A DNA stretch of 64,000 nucleotides from Allofustis seminis DSM 15817 (GCF_000374325.1 NZ_KB894079.1:1-64000), one strand, 5' to 3'. Numbered from the stretch's first letter, positions 3,143-11,435 are shown. Notes: generated by a model not told the origin, from the letters alone. Numbers and translations are program-made.

Positions 3143-4638
3143 AAATATTAAAAGAAAAAATTCGCGAATTAAAAACCAATCATTCCATACGCCTCACTTG
3201 GGGGTTGATTTCCGGTGGGGCGTTTTTTCTTATGTATTTATTTTTTACATTATTATTAATTTATAATTTCAAAAAATGGACATTGCATAATGAAAAAGAA
3301 GAGCTGGTTGAGTTACAAGTACAAATTGTAAATAATTTAAAGCAAGAAGGCCGTCAATTAGATACTCAAAATATCCAAAAATATATAAATGCTACTCCCG
3401 AGTTGGGGTCTGAAGAAAAAGCCACAGAGAATAATCATATGGACAAGGGACTTTCCTATCCATTGAAAAATATCTCTATGTATCGTCAAGGATATATTGT
3501 AAGTATTTATAATGTTGAAATGCAAGAAATTTTTTCGACGCAACCTCACCAATATGCAGTGGACCGTTATCGAACAGATGAAGTGCGCGAAGTGTATGAA
3601 AATCGAAAATTGACCGCCTTTAATGATCTGATGCCCGTCTATTCAATCTTTGATGAAAAAGAGTTGATAGGCTATGTTCAAGTTGTGAATACGCTAGATC
3701 GTTATGAAGAAATGATTACGCACATCCATCTTTTGGCCCTTATTCTTAGCACGATTGTATTGCTTGTGAGTTTTGGTGCAGGGTTGTTGCTATCTAATAG
3801 TTTTATGCGACCAATTAATCGCTTAATCTCAGCCATGAAAGAAATTCAACGAAATCCAGAATCTGATATTCGATTGTATGAAGGAAAACAAGCAAATGAA
3901 ATCGAAAAATTAGCCATGACATATAATGATATGGTTGATTTAATGCAGCGTAATATTGAAAATCAGCAGCAATTTGTAGAAGATGTCTCACATGAGTTAC
4001 GGACGCCTATTTCTGTTGTTGAAGGATACCTAAATATGCTTAACCGCTGGGGAAAAGAAGACCCGAATATTTTGGAAGAAAGTATTACAGTGAGTTTGCA
4101 AGAGATTCATCGGATTAAGAGCATGGTCCAGGAAATGTTGAGCCTCTCACGTGCAGAGCAGATGATGGGACGATTTACAAATGATACAACATCATTGATT
4201 GAAGTCGTAAGACAAACACATGCCAATTTTGAAATGCTTTATCCAGATTTTTTATTTACACTGGACATCGATGCAAAGGAACCTGTCATTGGTCAAATTT
4301 CTCAAGGACATTTTGAGCAAATATTAATCATTTTACTTGAAAATGCTGTGAAATATTCAAAAGATCGATTGGAGATTCATATTTCTTTATCTACTGAAAT
4401 ACATTATGCAACCTTAGTAATTCAAGACTTTGGGATTGGTATTGGGGAGAAAGATTTATTAAATATCTTTAATCGATTTTATCGAGTGGACAAGGCAAGA
4501 AGCCGAGCAAGCGGCGGAACCGGTCTAGGACTGCCTATTGCAAAACAACTTATCGAAGGATATGGCGGAACAATTCAAGTAGACAGTGTCGTGGATTATG
4601 GCACCATTTTCAGAATAAGAATACCATTAGCAAAATAA
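3139..4638 (+). CDS. Membrane sensor histidine kinase, ArlS/CsrS-like
   Basis: Partner kinase of the preceding regulator. Two membrane helices (about residues 20-43 and 195-222) bracket an extracytoplasmic sensing region of about 150 residues. A HAMP linker follows, then the phosphoacceptor His285 in VSHELRTPISVVEGY, the N box with Asn402 (LLENAVKYSKD), and the nucleotide-binding G boxes DFGIGIGEKD and GGTGLGLPIAKQL. It is predicted to autophosphorylate on His285 and pass the phosphate to D53 of the regulator. The 499-residue length is a little longer than S. aureus ArlS (451), mostly in the sensor region, which is Lys/Glu/Asn-rich at about 85-110. Its signal is unknown. A strong hairpin terminator begins at the stop codon, so the operon holds only these two genes. 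Confidence 0.93.
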   Translation: MKILKEKIRELKTNHSIRLTWGLISGGAFFLMYLFFTLLLIYNFKKWTLHNEKEELVELQVQIVNNLKQEGRQLDTQNIQKYINATPELGSEEKATENNHMDKGLSYPLKNISMYRQGYIVSIYNVEMQEIFSTQPHQYAVDRYRTDEVREVYENRKLTAFNDLMPVYSIFDEKELIGYVQVVNTLDRYEEMITHIHLLALILSTIVLLVSFGAGLLLSNSFMRPINRLISAMKEIQRNPESDIRLYEGKQANEIEKLAMTYNDMVDLMQRNIENQQQFVEDVSHELRTPISVVEGYLNMLNRWGKEDPNILEESITVSLQEIHRIKSMVQEMLSLSRAEQMMGRFTNDTTSLIEVVRQTHANFEMLYPDFLFTLDIDAKEPVIGQISQGHFEQILIILLENAVKYSKDRLEIHISLSTEIHYATLVIQDFGIGIGEKDLLNIFNRFYRVDKARSRASGGTGLGLPIAKQLIEGYGGTIQVDSVVDYGTIFRIRIPLAK

Positions 4639-4676
4639 AAAAGGTTTCTCATGATGAGAAACCTTTTTTTATTATG
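4632..4676 (+). terminator. Terminator of the two-component operon; left copy of a 45-nt duplicated element
   Basis: Stem AAAAAAGGTTTCTCAT / ATGAGAAACCTTTTTTT. The same 45 nt recur at 11391-11435 in the same orientation with two mismatches. The A-rich left arm makes it usable on either strand. Confidence 0.93.
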
Positions 4677-4978
4677 TTTTTTCTATCAAAAAGAGATTAA
4701 TAATAAATATTATTTGATTGAAAATTAGAAATTTAAATAATAAATCAAAAAAGTCCCGACAAAATCACTAATGGTTTTGTCGGGGTTTTTAGTTAATCAA
4801 ATATTCATAAGACATATAATTCTTACGTTCATTTAGCGCAACAATTAAGACATTATTATCATTTATTTAAAATGTAAAATAATTGTTGAAAGCACATACA
4901 AAAGATGGCTTCAATTGTTATTGTATTTAAAAAATGGGTCACCTACACTTTAATTAAAGTAAAGTGTTGGAGGTGTTT
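4677..4978 (+). promoter_or_regulatory. Leader region of the PTS island: possible catabolite site and ribosome-site-masking hairpin
   Basis: This 300-nt gap holds no credible gene. It carries an isolated terminator (4755-4790), described separately. TGAAAGCACATACA at 4887-4900 matches the CcpA cre consensus TGWAARCGYTWNCA at 12 of 14 positions but lacks the central CG. TTGAAAGC (4886-4893) and GCTTCAA (4908-4914) form an imperfect inverted repeat that could be an operator for the PRD regulator. Just before the IIA gene, ACACTTTA (4945-4952) pairs with TAAAGTGT (4960-4967), and CACCT (4940-4944) can pair with AGGTG (4971-4975), burying the ribosome site. No convincing sigma-A or sigma-54 promoter was found, in keeping with activator-dependent expression. 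The sites are predictions from sequence only. Confidence 0.5.
4755..4790 (+). terminator. Orphan intrinsic terminator ahead of the PTS operon
   Basis: Perfect 10-bp stem CCCGACAAAA / TTTTGTCGGG with a 10-nt loop and five T residues. No gene lies directly upstream: the previous operon already ended at 4670. It may be a relic of a lost gene, the end of a short RNA, or an attenuator of the PTS operon. Confidence 0.8.
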
Positions 4979-5446
4979 ATGATAGAAACGTGGATTAATA
5001 AAGAGTTTATTACATTAAATTTAGATGTAAAAACCCCTCGAGAAGCAATCGAAATGGCAAGTGAACCTTTGGTGGTGGCTGGAAGAATTGAATTGGAATA
5101 TATAAATGAAATGTTAATGAACTATAAAGAGGCAGGCCCTTATTTCGTATTGATGCCAAATGTAGCAATTCCTCATGCACAAGCTGAATCTTGGGTAAGA
5201 CAAAACTCTATTGCTATTTCAAGATTGAAAACTCCGGTATATTTTGGGAATAAGGCCAATGATCCAGTGAAATATGTTTTTATATTGGCCGCTGTTAAAG
5301 GAGAAGATCATTTAAAAGCTCTTTCTTTTTTATCTATTTTATTAGATGACAAAAAGTTTTTTGAGAAGCTTGAAGATGCTAAAAATCCTGACGAAATAAT
5401 TACATATATAGATTCAAAAAGAAAGGAAGCGTTAGAAAATGTATAA
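4979..5446 (+). CDS. PTS sugar transporter IIA component, fructose/mannitol (IIA-2) fold
   Basis: Cytosolic phosphocarrier that takes phosphate from HPr and passes it to the IIB protein of this operon. The active-site His66 lies in the signature VAIPHAQAES. The C-terminal half, with FGNKANDPVKYVFILAAVKGEDH and the closing helices, is typical of the IIA-2 family used by galactitol and ascorbate PTSs. The ATG at 4979 was chosen because GGAGGTG lies 4-10 nt upstream; an in-frame GTG at 4964 would overlap that site. It is 155 residues long and overlaps the IIB start by 8 nt. It is the first gene of the island operon. Family is clear, substrate is not. Confidence 0.9.
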   Translation: MIETWINKEFITLNLDVKTPREAIEMASEPLVVAGRIELEYINEMLMNYKEAGPYFVLMPNVAIPHAQAESWVRQNSIAISRLKTPVYFGNKANDPVKYVFILAAVKGEDHLKALSFLSILLDDKKFFEKLEDAKNPDEIITYIDSKRKEALENV

Positions 5447-5729
5447 AGCTTTAGTTGCATGTCGTGCTGGAATGGGGTCAAGTGTGTTACTAAAAGTTAA
5501 AGTTGACCAAGTGATAAAAGAAAATAATTTAGATATTTTTACAGAACATGGAAACTTAGATTCGCTTATTGGATTTAATGGAGACTTATTAATTACTATG
5601 GAAGATTTGGCAAATGAGCTAAGCGATAAAGTGGATTATGTAATTGGCATAAAAAATATTATTGATAAAGAAGAAATTGAGAGAAAATTAGAGGACTTTT
5701 TAAAGTTTAAAAATGAAAAAGATAAATAG
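5439..5729 (+). CDS. PTS IIB component, ascorbate/galactitol type
   Basis: Small cytosolic phosphocarrier (96 residues) that phosphorylates the sugar during import through IIC. The P-loop with the phosphocysteine is at the N-terminus: MYKALVACRAGMGSS, with Cys8. This short, free-standing IIB with C-x-x-G-x-G-S is typical of the SgaB/UlaB and GatB families. It overlaps the IIA gene by 8 nt and precedes IIC by 15 nt, so the three parts of one permease are expressed together. Confidence 0.9.
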   Translation: MYKALVACRAGMGSSVLLKVKVDQVIKENNLDIFTEHGNLDSLIGFNGDLLITMEDLANELSDKVDYVIGIKNIIDKEEIERKLEDFLKFKNEKDK

Positions 5730-5744
5730 GATAGGGGGATTATT

Positions 5745-7028
5745 ATGATAGATGCAATATTAGGACAAGTACGCAACACGGCGTTAATTGTAGGATTAAT
5801 TTCTTTTATCGGATTAGTTTTACAAGGAAAGAAATCTGACGAAGTGATCAGTGGTACGGTAAAAACAATTGCTGGATTTATGATATTTAACATTGGATCA
5901 AGTGCGATGTCATCTGTAGTTTCAAATTTTTCGGCATTATTTAATGCTGGTTTTGGAATTTCGGGTGTAACGACTCAAGTAGAAGTAGCGACCGCGTTAG
6001 CGCTAAATAAATTCGGAACTGAAGTTGCCCTACTTTTTGTTTTGGGGTTTGTCTTTAATTTAACTTTTGCTAAATTTACTAGATTTAAAGCTATTTTTCT
6101 GACTGGTCAACATTTTTTATATTTCGCATGTGTTTTGGCTCTTGTATTTATTTCTCATGGATTTCCAACTTGGGCAACTATTTTATTTGGCGGTATTATG
6201 TTAGGTTTTTGTGGAGCGGCTCTTCCAACTTTAGCACAGCCTTTTATGAATAAAATAACTGGATCAAATGATATTGCGATGGGTCATTTTAATTTAATCG
6301 GCTATACATTATCTGGTTATATTGGAAAACTTGTTGGGAAAGCGACTAATGATTCACATGATCAAGAAAAAGATATTAATTTGCCTGGCTTCTTAAAATT
6401 ATTTAGAGATTTTGTTTTTTCAGTTGCTGTCTTTATGGTGGTTTTATTCTATATTGCAGTAATCGCAGCTATGGTAAATGGACAAAGTGATCTGGTTGCC
6501 GAGATGTCTGGAAATGATATTTGGTTTATATGGCCACTTCTTCAAGGGCTACAATTTGCAGCAGGTATGTCAGTTTTAATTTATGGAGTAAGACAATTTA
6601 TTGCTGAAATTACAATGGCATTTGTTGCAATATCCGAAAAATATATTCCAGATTCAAAACCAGCAGTTGACTGTCCAGCGATCTTCCCATATGCACCACA
6701 TGCTGTTTTAATTGGTTTTGTAGGATCGCTATTGGGAGGATTTTTAGGAATGGCATTAATGGTGATGTTTAAGTCACCTGTTATATTAATTCCTGCTGCT
6801 GGTATTTGTTTCTTCTCTGGTGGAACGGCAGGAGTTTTTGGTCATGCTTATGGTGGATGGAAAGGTGCAGCTTTAGGTAGCTTTATTATAGGAATATTTT
6901 TAGTTGTACTTCCTTTAGCGCTATATCCGGCGTTCGCCCATTTAGGAATTGCAGAAGCTTCATTCCCTAATATTGACTATAACGTCATTGGTTCTTTACT
7001 CGATAAAATTTTGCAGTTATTCCAGTAA
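5745..7028 (+). CDS. PTS membrane transporter IIC component, ascorbate (SgaT/UlaA) family
   Basis: Polytopic membrane protein of 427 residues, with roughly ten hydrophobic segments, that forms the sugar channel of this PTS. The N-terminus (NTALIVGLISFIGLVLQGKK), the stretch GQHFLYFACVLALVF and the glycine-rich FFSGGTAGVFGHAYGGWKGA resemble the SgaT/UlaA permeases for L-ascorbate. That family also contains transporters of other or unknown substrates, and none of the classical ascorbate genes (UlaG lactonase, UlaD, UlaE, UlaF) is in this window, so ascorbate should not be assumed. It has ribosome site AGGGGG and is followed by a perfect palindrome before the regulator gene. Confidence 0.88.
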   Translation: MIDAILGQVRNTALIVGLISFIGLVLQGKKSDEVISGTVKTIAGFMIFNIGSSAMSSVVSNFSALFNAGFGISGVTTQVEVATALALNKFGTEVALLFVLGFVFNLTFAKFTRFKAIFLTGQHFLYFACVLALVFISHGFPTWATILFGGIMLGFCGAALPTLAQPFMNKITGSNDIAMGHFNLIGYTLSGYIGKLVGKATNDSHDQEKDINLPGFLKLFRDFVFSVAVFMVVLFYIAVIAAMVNGQSDLVAEMSGNDIWFIWPLLQGLQFAAGMSVLIYGVRQFIAEITMAFVAISEKYIPDSKPAVDCPAIFPYAPHAVLIGFVGSLLGGFLGMALMVMFKSPVILIPAAGICFFSGGTAGVFGHAYGGWKGAALGSFIIGIFLVVLPLALYPAFAHLGIAEASFPNIDYNVIGSLLDKILQLFQ

Positions 7029-7037
7029 AGAGTTGTT

Positions 7038-7061
7038 AGAGAGAATCCTAGGATTCTCTCT
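7038..7061 (+). repeat. Perfect 24-nt palindrome between IIC and the regulator gene
   Basis: The sequence runs AGAGAGAATCCT then AGGATTCTCTCT, an uninterrupted inverted repeat. It is followed by GATATTTTA rather than a T run, so it is not a strong terminator. It could act as an mRNA processing or stabilising hairpin that sets IIC and regulator levels apart, or as a dyad operator. Confidence 0.7.
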
Positions 7062-7090
7062 GATATTTTATAGAAGGAGGGTAAGTTGTA

Positions 7091-9166
7091 GTGGATAAAG
7101 AAGTACTCGAATTAATTCGAATTCTTTCTGTCCAACATATTTTACAAGTTAAAGATGTAGAAAGAATGACCCAAGCTTCTCGTCGTCAAATCGATTATAG
7201 AATTGAAAAAATAAATCAGCTGCTTATTGACTATCACTTACCACCAATTTATATTCAAAATCAAATGATCATTGCTGATCCTGTAGTGAAAGAATTTTTA
7301 TTGGAATATACGTTTAGTGATTTAAATCAATCTGAATATTATTTAAATCGTATAGAGCGACAACAGTATATTTTTATTTGGATGTATATAAATAGTGAAT
7401 ATTTATCTGTTCAGCATATTACGCAACAACTATCAGTTAGTAAAACAACTTTGATGAATGATATGAATGATCTCTCTGAATTATTAAAAAAAGAAGGGGT
7501 AGACATTCATTATAATCGTTCCTTAGGATACTATCTAAAAGGTTCTGAACATAAAAAACAAAAAATGATGGTTAAAATGGTTGCTAATATGGTAACTCAT
7601 GATAACACTTCTCAAGTATTGCCAATGATTTTAAATGACTTTGATTTTATGAATTTCAATCTCGTAAAGAAAGTGTTTAATAATTTAGCCAAAAAACAAA
7701 ATATTAATTTTGTTGAAACACGCTTAAAAGAATTTATATATATTTTTTTATTTGAATCTAAACGATTATCCAGTTCCACTCATAAATTAATTCAAAAACA
7801 ATCTGAACATATCAATTTAACTCATGATTTAAAAGAATATTATTTTATTAAGCAATTGATCTCTTATTATCATTTGGAAAATATTTTTGGGGAAGAAGAT
7901 ATTGAATATTTAGTCTATTGGATTTTAGGCGTTTCGATAGGCGATATAAATGAAGAAACAGCGGATCGTGAAATGATTTATGAATTAGTATGCGAAATTG
8001 TTGCTAATTTTGAACGATTAAGCGGTACAGCAATTGTTGATTCCACTAGCCTTATTGAGCATATATACTCTCATTTTAGACCAGCATTTTATAGAATCAC
8101 TAACGATATTCCAATCGATAATCCATTAACTATGAAAATTGTTAATAGATATGAAGGGTTGATTATGATTGTTAGGGAAATATTTAAATCTATACAACCT
8201 TTAAAACAATATCATGTTTCATTAGATGAGTTATCGCTTATGGCATTACATTTTTCGACAGTATTTTTACAAGATAACCAAATTAAGGATTTAAAGAAAA
8301 TTCGTGCATTAATTGTTTGTTTGAATGGAATTGGGAGTTCGGTGATTTTATATAATGAATTAAGAACAATGTTTAGCGAATTTGAGTTTTATCCACCAAT
8401 TTCAGCATATGACTTATCACAAATAAGTGGTGATTTTGATATTATTTTTACGACTAATATTGTTGAAGAAATGATTGATAGCGATAAGCCTGTTGTTAAA
8501 GTTTCTCCAGTAATGAGTGTATCTGAAAAGCGGTTTTTATATCGACAAGTTTATTCCGCATTAATTAATCATGAAATTTATAAAAAAGAAGACAATGTAC
8601 AATCCATTCTTAAAAAGAATCATATAGATGATGCTTTGACAGATAAATTAACTTATGAATTGACACAATATTTTACTCATAAAATTGAAGGTAAACTTGT
8701 ATTTGACTTTCCTGGCCAATTAAAACTAGAAGAGATGGTATATCCACATTATATTTTGCTTAAACTTGAAGCTAGTCATGATGAGGATGCAATTAAAAAA
8801 ATTGGTCAGGTTCTTTTAGATGATTGTGTAATTGATAGAGAATATATTGAAGCAATGATAAAACGCCAGAGATCGCATCCTAATTATTTTGTTATTGCAC
8901 TAGGCGTTGCTTTCCCTCATGCACAGCCTTTTCATGGAGTACATAAAGATGCTTTAGTAATTTGTACATTAGCTAAGCCCGTTACTTTTGGAGAAGAAAA
9001 AGTAAGCAAAATTTTTATGCTGGCAGCTACTAACAATAATTCTCATCTAAATGCTATGGGGGAATTGCTTGATTTAATTAATAATGAAGAATTTATGAGC
9101 ACGCTTGATGACACTGAAGATATTAGCGATATTTATCGTTTCATCATAAACAAGGAGGGTCATTGA
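7091..9166 (+). CDS. PRD-containing PTS transcription regulator, MtlR/LicR type
   Basis: A 691-residue regulator whose activity is set by PTS phosphorylation. Order of parts: N-terminal helix-turn-helix regions (about 1-170; RRQIDYRIEKIN and SVSKTTLMNDMNDLSELL), PRD1 (about 200-290), PRD2 (about 310-400, with the His-rich start IEHIYSHFRPAFYRI and ALHFSTVFL), a IIB-like domain with Cys410 in VCLNGIGSS, and a C-terminal IIA-2 domain with His610 in VAFPHAQP. There is no AAA+ domain, so it is not a sigma-54 activator, and no RNA-binding antiterminator domain at the start, so direct DNA binding is expected. GTG start at 7091 with AAGGAGGG upstream. It lies inside the operon it probably controls. 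By eye it is very AT-rich; the 60-nt line at 7681 has only 11 G or C. Confidence 0.88.
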   Translation: MDKEVLELIRILSVQHILQVKDVERMTQASRRQIDYRIEKINQLLIDYHLPPIYIQNQMIIADPVVKEFLLEYTFSDLNQSEYYLNRIERQQYIFIWMYINSEYLSVQHITQQLSVSKTTLMNDMNDLSELLKKEGVDIHYNRSLGYYLKGSEHKKQKMMVKMVANMVTHDNTSQVLPMILNDFDFMNFNLVKKVFNNLAKKQNINFVETRLKEFIYIFLFESKRLSSSTHKLIQKQSEHINLTHDLKEYYFIKQLISYYHLENIFGEEDIEYLVYWILGVSIGDINEETADREMIYELVCEIVANFERLSGTAIVDSTSLIEHIYSHFRPAFYRITNDIPIDNPLTMKIVNRYEGLIMIVREIFKSIQPLKQYHVSLDELSLMALHFSTVFLQDNQIKDLKKIRALIVCLNGIGSSVILYNELRTMFSEFEFYPPISAYDLSQISGDFDIIFTTNIVEEMIDSDKPVVKVSPVMSVSEKRFLYRQVYSALINHEIYKKEDNVQSILKKNHIDDALTDKLTYELTQYFTHKIEGKLVFDFPGQLKLEEMVYPHYILLKLEASHDEDAIKKIGQVLLDDCVIDREYIEAMIKRQRSHPNYFVIALGVAFPHAQPFHGVHKDALVICTLAKPVTFGEEKVSKIFMLAATNNNSHLNAMGELLDLINNEEFMSTLDDTEDISDIYRFIINKEGH

Positions 9167-10050
9167 TGTTTTCAGGAATTATTACACCTATATTGAGCTC
9201 ATTTCATCGTGATACAGAGAGAACCTTAAATTTAGATGCAATGGAGCCACTGATAGATTATTTGTTAGACAATGGTGTGCGTACGCTTTTTGCGCTCGGC
9301 AGCAATGGCGAATTTTTTACAATGAACGATCATGAAAAATTACAATTCGTAAAACATATATTAAATTATGTTGATGGAAGAGTTCCAATTATTGTAGGGA
9401 CTTCTTCTTGTCAGCGTAATGAGGTCTTAAAATTATCTAAAAAGGTTCAAGCATTAGGGGCCGCTGCTGTATCTATACTGCCACCATATTTTATAAGACC
9501 GACGGACGATGAGATTATTAGTTATTATATTGATATTGCTGATCAACTTGAAATACCGATCATTATGTATAATATTCCAAAGAATGTAGGTTATTCAATT
9601 AGTAATGAAGTCTTAGATGAATGCTTGAAACACAACAATATAATAGGTATTAAAGATAGTAGTGGCAATAGAGATGTTATTGTAGATTTCACAAAAATTT
9701 GTCATGAAAATCAAAAGTCATACTGGTGCGGAAGTGATGGAAACATATCTTTTTCGTATCAACATGGAGCCGTCGGAGCAATTTCAGGATTAAGCAATGT
9801 TATTCCTCAAACGATTGTTAGCTTATGGGATGCACTGGAAAAAGAAGATTTTGGCAGAGCAGAAGGATTACAGCAGATGATAGAAGAAATAAGAACAGTT
9901 AATCATTTGAATACTGTGCCATCTATTTTAAAAAGAGCGATTGAATTAGCAAATATCTCTAAATTAGGACCTGCTCGCCATCCTGTGGAAGACATCGCAG
10001 GAAAATATGATGATCGTATCATTAAAATGCTGAGATATTATAATTTATAG
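9166..10050 (+). CDS. DapA-family (class I) 2-keto acid aldolase/lyase
   Basis: Member of the dihydrodipicolinate synthase / N-acetylneuraminate lyase / KDG aldolase family, which makes or breaks a carbon-carbon bond next to pyruvate. The Schiff-base Lys163 (GIKDSSGN), Tyr135 (IMYNIPKN) and the loop LGSNGEFFTM (the GxxGE site that binds the pyruvyl carboxylate) are present, so it should be active. The context is sugar catabolism, not lysine synthesis, which favours a 2-keto-3-deoxy-sugar-acid or sialate-like substrate over dihydrodipicolinate. The ATG at 9166 is preferred: AAGGAGGG lies 6 nt before it and it overlaps the regulator's TGA by one base; an in-frame TTG one codon upstream is less likely. 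294 residues, normal for the family. Confidence 0.88.
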   Translation: MFSGIITPILSSFHRDTERTLNLDAMEPLIDYLLDNGVRTLFALGSNGEFFTMNDHEKLQFVKHILNYVDGRVPIIVGTSSCQRNEVLKLSKKVQALGAAAVSILPPYFIRPTDDEIISYYIDIADQLEIPIIMYNIPKNVGYSISNEVLDECLKHNNIIGIKDSSGNRDVIVDFTKICHENQKSYWCGSDGNISFSYQHGAVGAISGLSNVIPQTIVSLWDALEKEDFGRAEGLQQMIEEIRTVNHLNTVPSILKRAIELANISKLGPARHPVEDIAGKYDDRIIKMLRYYNL

Positions 10051-10063
10051 AAAGGGAAAAGAT

Positions 10064-10696
10064 ATGAAAAAGCATGAAATTTTTGACAAAATGCTATCGT
10101 ATAAAGCACTTGCTATTTTAAGAGTAGATTCTATAAAGAGAGCAGATGAGGTGGCTGATGCCTTAATACGTGCTGAATTACCCGTTTTGGAGATTAGTTA
10201 TACCAATTTGGATGCAGGTCAAAGTATTAATTATTTAAAATCAAAATATAAAAATAATATTATTTGCGGAGCAGGCACTGTATTAGATGAGCAAGCAGCT
10301 TTCGATGCGACTAAAAATGGAGCAGATTTTATTATAGCTCCAAATTATAATGAAAAAGTAGCTTTAGTTTGCAATCGGTATCAAATTCCTTATGGGCCTG
10401 GTTGTACGTCACTTTCAGAAGCTGTTGAAGCTTTAACATATGGTGCCTCTTTTATAAAAGCATTTCCAATCTCTAATTTTTATGGCGCGAAGCTAGTGCC
10501 GGTTTTTAAAACACCCTTTCCTAAGTTGTTGCTGATGGCTAGTGGTGGGATTAATTTAGATAATTTAGAACATTGGCTATCGGCTGGGGTGGATCTTGTT
10601 GCTTTCGGGAGTTTATTGTCTGAAGGATCGGGCGAAGATATTTACCAACATGCTAAAATGATTAAATCAATTATCCATAAAAACACAGAAGGATGA
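10064..10696 (+). CDS. KDPG/KHG aldolase family protein with altered substrate-binding loop
   Basis: A 210-residue class I aldolase of the Eda family, which cleaves 2-keto-3-deoxy-6-phosphosugar acids to pyruvate and a phosphorylated aldehyde. Schiff-base Lys132 (SFIKAFPIS) and catalytic Glu43 (PVLEISYTN) are present, as are GAGTVLDEQAA and the phosphate-site MASGGI. In classical KDPG aldolase the segment after the Glu reads like EVTLRT, with an Arg; here it is EISYTN, without it. The substrate may therefore differ in stereochemistry or in the group at the carboxyl end. It is 13 nt after the DapA-family gene and overlaps the next frame, so the two aldolases are co-expressed. Confidence 0.88.
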   Translation: MKKHEIFDKMLSYKALAILRVDSIKRADEVADALIRAELPVLEISYTNLDAGQSINYLKSKYKNNIICGAGTVLDEQAAFDATKNGADFIIAPNYNEKVALVCNRYQIPYGPGCTSLSEAVEALTYGASFIKAFPISNFYGAKLVPVFKTPFPKLLLMASGGINLDNLEHWLSAGVDLVAFGSLLSEGSGEDIYQHAKMIKSIIHKNTEG

Positions 10697-10701
10697 TCGA
10701 G

Positions 10702-11301
10702 ATGAGTTACAACGAGGAAATAAGAAAAGTTATTAGTATAGAAATCAATGGTTTACAAAATTTAGAAAAAAATATTAATGGTACTTATGGACAATTAGTC
10801 GAAATGATCTTAAATATGAAAGGGAAACTTATCATTACTGGCGTGGGAAAGTCGGGTTTAATTGCTAAGAAAATTTCGGCAACTTTTTCTTCTATTGGTA
10901 CGCCATGTTTTTATATGCATAGCACTGAAGGACTTCATGGGGATCTGGGAATGATCGAAAAAGGGGATATAGTTATCGCAATTTCAAATAGTGGGGAAAC
11001 ATCTGAAGTGTTAGCTTTAATGCCATCTATTCAAAAAATTGGAGCTTGTTTAGTGAGTATGACATCTAATTCACAATCAACACTCGCGAAGTTATCAGAA
11101 CTTGCATTAGTATATCAATATGATCAAGAGGCCGATCATTTGAATTTAGCACCTACAACAAGCGCAATCATTTGCTTAGCTATTGGAGATGCTGTGGCAT
11201 GTACTGTTAGTAAATGTCGCAACTTTACTGCTGAGGAATTTCATACATTTCATCCAGGGGGTAGTTTAGGCAACTTATTAGAACAAAATCTTTTAAAATA
11301 A
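10702..11301 (+). CDS. SIS-domain sugar-phosphate isomerase, KpsF/GutQ-like, without CBS domains
   Basis: A 199-residue protein made only of the SIS fold. It has the family motifs TGVGKSGLIAKKISATFSS, HGDLGMI, ISNSGETSEV, LAPTTSAIICLAIGDA and FHPGGSLGNLL. KpsF/GutQ/KdsD enzymes interconvert ribulose 5-phosphate and arabinose 5-phosphate and carry two CBS domains after the SIS domain; these are absent here. CBS-less forms act on various sugar phosphates. In this operon it is likely to isomerise the phosphorylated sugar delivered by the PTS or a later intermediate. The ATG at 10702 has GAAGG 9-10 nt upstream; another ATG at 10693 overlaps the aldolase stop but leaves no room for a ribosome site. 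Last gene of the island. Confidence 0.85.
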   Translation: MSYNEEIRKVISIEINGLQNLEKNINGTYGQLVEMILNMKGKLIITGVGKSGLIAKKISATFSSIGTPCFYMHSTEGLHGDLGMIEKGDIVIAISNSGETSEVLALMPSIQKIGACLVSMTSNSQSTLAKLSELALVYQYDQEADHLNLAPTTSAIICLAIGDAVACTVSKCRNFTAEEFHTFHPGGSLGNLLEQNLLK

Positions 11302-11390: not shown

Positions 11391-11435
11391 AAAATAAAAA
11401 AGGTTTCTCATCATGAGAAACCTTTTTTTATTTTG
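11391..11435. terminator. Bidirectional terminator between the island and uspA; right copy of the duplicated element
   Basis: Stem AAAAAAGGTTTCTCAT / ATGAGAAACCTTTTTTT, serving the SIS gene on the plus strand and uspA on the minus strand. It repeats 4632-4676 in direct orientation with two mismatches over 45 nt. Confidence 0.92.

Follow-up and report, generated by a model that had tools for sequence, protein, structure and literature searches.

What compound would be served by an operon that joins an ascorbate-type phosphotransferase system (PTS) to two aldolase-family enzymes and a sugar-phosphate isomerase? The question is raised by seven genes at positions 4979-11301 of a 64,000-nucleotide stretch of Allofustis seminis DSM 15817 (GCF_000374325.1, NZ_KB894079.1:1-64000; hereafter the window), all on the + strand, whose products are, in order, an EIIA (PF00359), an EIIB (PF02302), an EIIC (PF03611), a PRD regulator (PRD, HTH and EIIA domains), a DapA-family lyase (PF00701), an Eda-family aldolase (PF01081) and a short SIS isomerase (PF01380). 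Both the coordinates, which we checked on the window sequence, and these family matches bore out the initial annotation of the locus, made from the DNA alone, which had listed seven co-oriented genes of these families. The genes are tightly packed (overlap or abutment at IIA/IIB, PRD/DapA and Eda/SIS), and a GGAGG site precedes the ATG at 4979. In the reading we favour, with confidence and doubt evenly balanced, the PTS would feed in an acid phosphate, an aldolase would yield pyruvate and an aldose phosphate, and the SIS enzyme would yield ribulose-5-phosphate. Overall, the observation behind the initial annotation was confirmed and its interpretation partly supported.

Conservation and genome context of the operon

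Most of the relative loci were picked solely by the DapA protein profile. The DapA clade had matches in 34 of 395 genomes of the order and, with the A. seminis genome counted, in 11 of the 398 genomes in a sample of the phylum. DapA, Eda and SIS genes stood together in 34 of the 50 relative loci inspected, and all seven families lay within 9 kb in 30 (Lactobacillales, Dielma and a C. difficile plasmid); L079 has an EIIA match that is a domain of the regulator, L081 a displaced IIC and L035 another PTS clade. The initial annotation had proposed such a neighborhood search, and because the same seven families recur in these 30 loci, we conclude that the set is a true conserved operon and not a chance assembly. 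Carriers include Lactobacillus laiwuensis, Dielma fastidiosa, the C. difficile plasmid, an E. gilvus megaplasmid and an E. lactis plasmid. The distances of IIC, IIB, DapA and Eda correlate, with Spearman coefficients of 0.72-0.84 against permutation maxima of 0.46-0.61. When an Eda profile was run across Bacilli, the Eda genes recovered lay in other contexts and never in the DapA/Eda/SIS triad; the DapA profile search, by contrast, recovered further clusters.

The A. seminis genome (1.44 Mb, 99.7% complete) has one Eda gene and one DapA-family gene, both inside the operon. Genome-wide, we found no DapB, no 2-keto-3-deoxygluconate (KDG) kinase, the sole full-length PfkB protein being a ribokinase, and no ILVD/EDD dehydratase. 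The initial annotation had remarked that the cluster lacks a dehydratase and a kinase; this now extends to the whole genome for KDG kinase and the ILVD/EDD family, while UxuA, UxaA/GarD and the enolase superfamily were not searched. Its proposal that the PTS itself phosphorylates the imported sugar acid gains support from these absences: in a genome without KDG kinase or an Edd-type substrate source, phosphorylation by the PTS is the simplest way to provide the Eda homolog with its substrate.

The isomerase

The SIS gene (10702..11301, + strand) encodes a protein of the KpsF/KdsD group (PF01380, TIGR00393) that is 199-202 residues long and has no CBS domains. Its score against TIGR00393 was 190.3 bits relative to a cut-off of 203.7, the model running into the CBS region that the protein lacks. 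It is 46% identical to E. coli c3406, with which it groups. Among solved structures it best matches 5UQI, which is a phosphosugar isomerase of 198 residues and aligns identically to c3406. Mosberg et al. are said to have found in 2011 that c3406 has arabinose-5-phosphate (A5P) isomerase activity, the substrate of its operon being unknown. We take the active-site residues of A5P isomerases to be K59, H88, E111, E152 and H193 of KdsD; their counterparts K50, H79, E102, E143 and H184, at a constant offset of 9, are invariant in 36/36 cluster SIS proteins. Since all of these residues are kept and the protein groups with c3406, the SIS enzyme is a probable A5P isomerase, and it is probably not a uronate isomerase (the initial annotation had allowed for an isomerizable uronate as the imported compound).

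Two distant SIS subfamilies (type A, n=10; type B, n=26) occur at different positions in otherwise equal operons. Both subfamilies would fill the same role wherever they stand, a pattern that resembles non-orthologous replacement and argues that the pathway needs the isomerase step. Locus L146 keeps DapA and SIS with no Eda, and its SIS gene adjoins LacI, ribokinase, RbsD and a ribose-type ABC transporter, a context consistent with a pentose-5-phosphate substrate for SIS; the presence of both genes without Eda, beside ribose genes, is a hint that the minimal pair consists of DapA and SIS. We also considered reading the operon substrate from the bgl operons at L027, L080 and L134 or the ribose genes at L142 and L146, and rejected this, as the association is too thin to name one.

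The two aldolases

The Eda homolog (10064..10696, + strand; PF01081) retains Lys132, Glu43, Arg20, Thr72 and the GG phosphate-binding motif in alignment. Among the 36 cluster Eda proteins, K132, E43 and G161 occur in all and G162 in 35, so that the Lys, Glu, Arg20 and GG phosphate loop are each retained in at least 35. Its score against NCBIfam eda (TIGR01182) was 141.9 bits, under the cut-off of 156.05, and for this reason we class it by sequence as Eda-family and do not file it as a true 2-keto-3-deoxy-6-phosphogluconate (KDPG) aldolase. The nearest natural protein of solved structure is the T. maritima KDPG aldolase. The initial annotation had correctly quoted the sequence E43-I-S-Y-T-N and had taken its missing Arg as a sign of another substrate. 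The homolog indeed has Thr at the place of E. coli Arg49 (motif E-V-T-L-R); however, the T. maritima KDPG aldolase reads EITFT, i.e., Thr at the same position, and Thr or Ser is found in 40/40 Eda proteins from other Bacilli loci (Arg in 0/40), so this argument falls. Ser45, by contrast, is present in 35/36 cluster Eda proteins versus Thr or Ala in 40/40 from other Bacilli loci, and other changes lie at 137 and 184.

The DapA-family protein (9163..10050, + strand; PF00701) is a predicted class I lyase that retains Lys164, the expected Schiff base residue, and Tyr136. It scored 81.9 bits against the nanA equivalog TIGR00683 (cut-off 382) and was also under the KdgD cut-off. That the protein is an ordinary dihydrodipicolinate synthase (DHDPS) of the lysine pathway that chanced into a sugar operon is scarcely credible, even though relatives' genes carry the dapA label in NCBI annotation and DHDPS entries head its PDB profile search, where the matches include YagE, a 2-keto-3-deoxygalactonate (KDGal) aldolase. 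The score is under the dapA cut-off (157.6 vs. 206), the genome has no DapB, and the DHDPS residues T45 (to N) and Y107 (to F or L) are replaced in 39/39 cluster DapA proteins; R138 is retained in just 2/39, while K161 and Y133 are retained. Judged by these features, the enzyme is not a DHDPS.

The outgroup DapA loci (L149, L151-L155, L157-L160, L162 and L163) have other contexts and were set aside. In L151 and L157 the genes beside a related DapA were assigned by eye to a four-carbon acid kinase (DUF1537-like), a dehydrogenase resembling PdxA2 and an alcohol dehydrogenase of the iron type, possibly a threonate/erythronate-like pathway plus an aldolase. Dielma fastidiosa has a third aldolase, of the HpaI family, between the IIC and SIS genes of the same operon (L028:8620-9375).

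PTS components and regulator

The EIIA (4979..5446) is of mannitol/fructose type and UlaC-like (PF00359, E 9.8e-37; 30% identical to E. coli UlaC), with a phospho-His motif AIPHAQ. The EIIB (5439..5729; PF02302) has a phospho-Cys motif CRAGMGSS and is 75% identical to the Dielma EIIB. The EIIC (5745..7028), of the ascorbate/GAT superfamily, matched PF03611 and NF006919, the latter with 418 bits (cut-off 380), and is 73% identical to the Dielma EIIC. The regulator (7091..9166) has an MtlR-like layout of HTH, PRD, EIIB-like and EIIA domains, with Pfam matches to PRD, HTH_11, Mga and PTS_EIIA_2. All four genes are on the + strand.

Proposed pathway and its alternatives

In the scheme we favour, the ascorbate-type PTS would import and phosphorylate an acidic sugar, which would either be a 3-deoxy-2-keto aldonic acid or lie one step from such an acid. 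The resulting acid phosphate would be split by a class I aldolase, for which the DapA-family lyase, the Eda homolog or both are candidates. Of the two products, pyruvate and an aldose phosphate, the latter would be converted by the SIS protein, as an A5P isomerase, to ribulose-5-phosphate for the pentose phosphate pathway, while the PRD protein would read the PTS phosphorylation state and switch the operon. Gene content, co-conservation, active-site residues and the lack of an alternative kinase or ILVD/EDD dehydratase are its observed part; from these we infer in which direction the pathway runs, to what class its substrate belongs and which aldose phosphate is formed. The aldol products of C6, C7 and C9 acids (glyceraldehyde-3-phosphate, erythrose-4-phosphate and mannose-6-phosphate) need no special isomerase, whereas 3-deoxy-D-manno-octulosonic acid (Kdo)-8-phosphate minus pyruvate is A5P, which does need a dedicated one. 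On this ground of parsimony we hypothesize that Kdo is the top single candidate substrate. In a Gram-positive, PTS-dependent Kdo catabolism the PTS would form Kdo-8-phosphate, the DapA-family or Eda lyase would release pyruvate and A5P, and the SIS enzyme would give ribulose-5-phosphate; we put this forward tentatively, as rather improbable in so specific a form, and literature searches found no description of a Kdo-catabolic PTS.

Several points weigh against the favoured scheme. We know of no PTS for Kdo or any other 2-keto-3-deoxy acid, and almost all loci keep two aldolases while a single-substrate scheme accounts for one. The DapA family also holds dehydratases and deaminases, so the sequence cannot fix the reaction of this member; the A5P-isomerase activity of the SIS protein is likewise a prediction from homology, and the tree correlation partly reflects common descent.

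A six-carbon version, in which the PTS makes KDPG or its galactonate counterpart KDPGal from 2-keto-3-deoxygluconate or -galactonate and Eda cleaves it to pyruvate and glyceraldehyde-3-phosphate, with DapA and SIS serving a second substrate or branch, is possible but rather doubtful. It would suit an Eda homolog whose nearest solved relative is a KDPG aldolase and which keeps the phosphate-binding and catalytic residues, a genome without KDG kinase, and the DapA match to YagE; however, it gives the near-universal SIS gene nothing to do, and both the clade-specific T45S change, unseen in the 40 other Bacilli Eda proteins, and L146, with DapA and SIS but no Eda, speak against it. An amino-sugar-acid route, with import of an amino aldonate by the PTS, deamination or conversion by the DapA-family enzyme to a keto-deoxy acid phosphate and cleavage by Eda, appears quite unlikely. 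Its precedent is the D-glucosaminate (dga) pathway of Salmonella, which consists of the DgaABCD PTS, the ammonia-lyase DgaE and the KDPG aldolase DgaF (PMC9529869), and pyridoxal phosphate (PLP) enzymes are found near relatives elsewhere (alanine racemase in L137, MalY in CFT073). Among described systems the dga pathway comes closest by analogy and is a precedent for our favoured scheme as well, since there too the uptake and phosphorylation of a sugar acid by a PTS are followed by cleavage of the 2-keto-3-deoxy phosphate by an Eda-family enzyme (PMC9529869), but it has a mannose-type PTS and a PLP ammonia-lyase, and no DapA-family lyase or SIS protein. None of our seven gene products is a PLP enzyme, so the unit has no DgaE-like PLP lyase; deamination of a phosphorylated amino acid by the DapA family would be new, and the SIS protein would be left unexplained. 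Use of L-ascorbate by an Ula-type route is very unlikely: the NF006919 score over the cut-off would name the IIC an ascorbate transporter, and the EIIA and EIIC are of the same superfamilies as those of E. coli ula (28-30% identity), but the IIC is just 28% identical to UlaA, the enzymes present do not suit the Ula route, and the UlaD, UlaE, UlaF and UlaG of the ula system have no homolog in the window or in the own-genome stretches L043-L046 (the whole genome was not searched).

Returning to the PTS-fed aldolase-isomerase scheme, no description of the cluster was found in our literature searches, in line with the initial annotation, and the operon apparently is uncharacterized despite its wide carriage. 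Its presence in ~30 loci of Lactobacillales and relatives, Dielma, and C. difficile and Enterococcus plasmids makes it probable that the substrate is a nutrient commonly met in gut and food niches. An A5P-type isomerase coupled to pyruvate aldolases in bacteria without lipopolysaccharide may be a reason why Gram-positives carry such isomerases; the Kdo version, if true, would be the first Kdo scavenging route of its kind and would give A5P isomerase a function in organisms without lipopolysaccharide. The automatic labels "ascorbate PTS" and "dapA" on these genes are likely wrong.

Comparison with other described and related clusters

The E. coli CFT073 operon c3405-c3410 (PAI-metV) also combines a CBS-less SIS protein (c3406), a PTS EIIC and a PRD regulator, but neither Eda nor DapA is encoded there, and its other products include a MalY/PatB protein and a 2-hydroxyacid dehydrogenase. 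Its EIIC is annotated just as PTS EIIC and was unmatched by our search with the window's EIIC family. We rejected it as the same system, since SIS, PTS and PRD are common to both but the aldolases are not. A sister cluster in L031, L123, L135 and L140 carries a DapA of the same clade, joined in L031 and L123 by SIS and Eda, but there mannose-type IIB/IIC/IID/IIA and a 2-hydroxyacid dehydrogenase replace the ascorbate-type PTS. None of the dga, CFT073, ula or mannose-type sister clusters is the same system.

The sister cluster spans L031:10975-16742, L123:7007-14353 and L135:10908-16901; its dehydrogenase is of the D-2-hydroxyacid type, that of L135 being 36% identical to the dehydrogenase of the c3406 operon, and a PucR/CdaR-like regulator is present in L123 and L135. 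At L137:1547-8003, a mannose-type PTS is followed by alanine racemase, a YitT membrane protein, SIS, DapA and Eda.

Operon boundaries and neighboring regions

A hairpin with a T tail (7034..7065, + strand), containing a 12+12 bp perfect palindrome at 7038-7061, lies between the IIC and regulator genes and is a putative attenuator or operator. Near-identical 33-bp terminator hairpins (AAGGTTTCTCATNATGAGAAACCTT) at 4637..4669 and 11396..11428, both on the + strand, flank the operon exactly, and no further copy was found in the 420 kb of the A. seminis genome examined; this arrangement suggests that the operon was inserted or excised by recombination between the two copies. A cre-like site at 4886 was not above chance. 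The block upstream of the operon (gnd-response regulator-kinase) is kept in relatives (24/28 loci with hits). Elsewhere in the genome (L043, C2:10000-29000) there is a dense carbohydrate island, where another ascorbate-type PTS is accompanied by a ribulose-phosphate 3-epimerase and a split transketolase, both noted by eye. This second system adjoins a mannose-type PTS that comes with two SIS proteins and with a ribokinase/nucleoside hydrolase pair.

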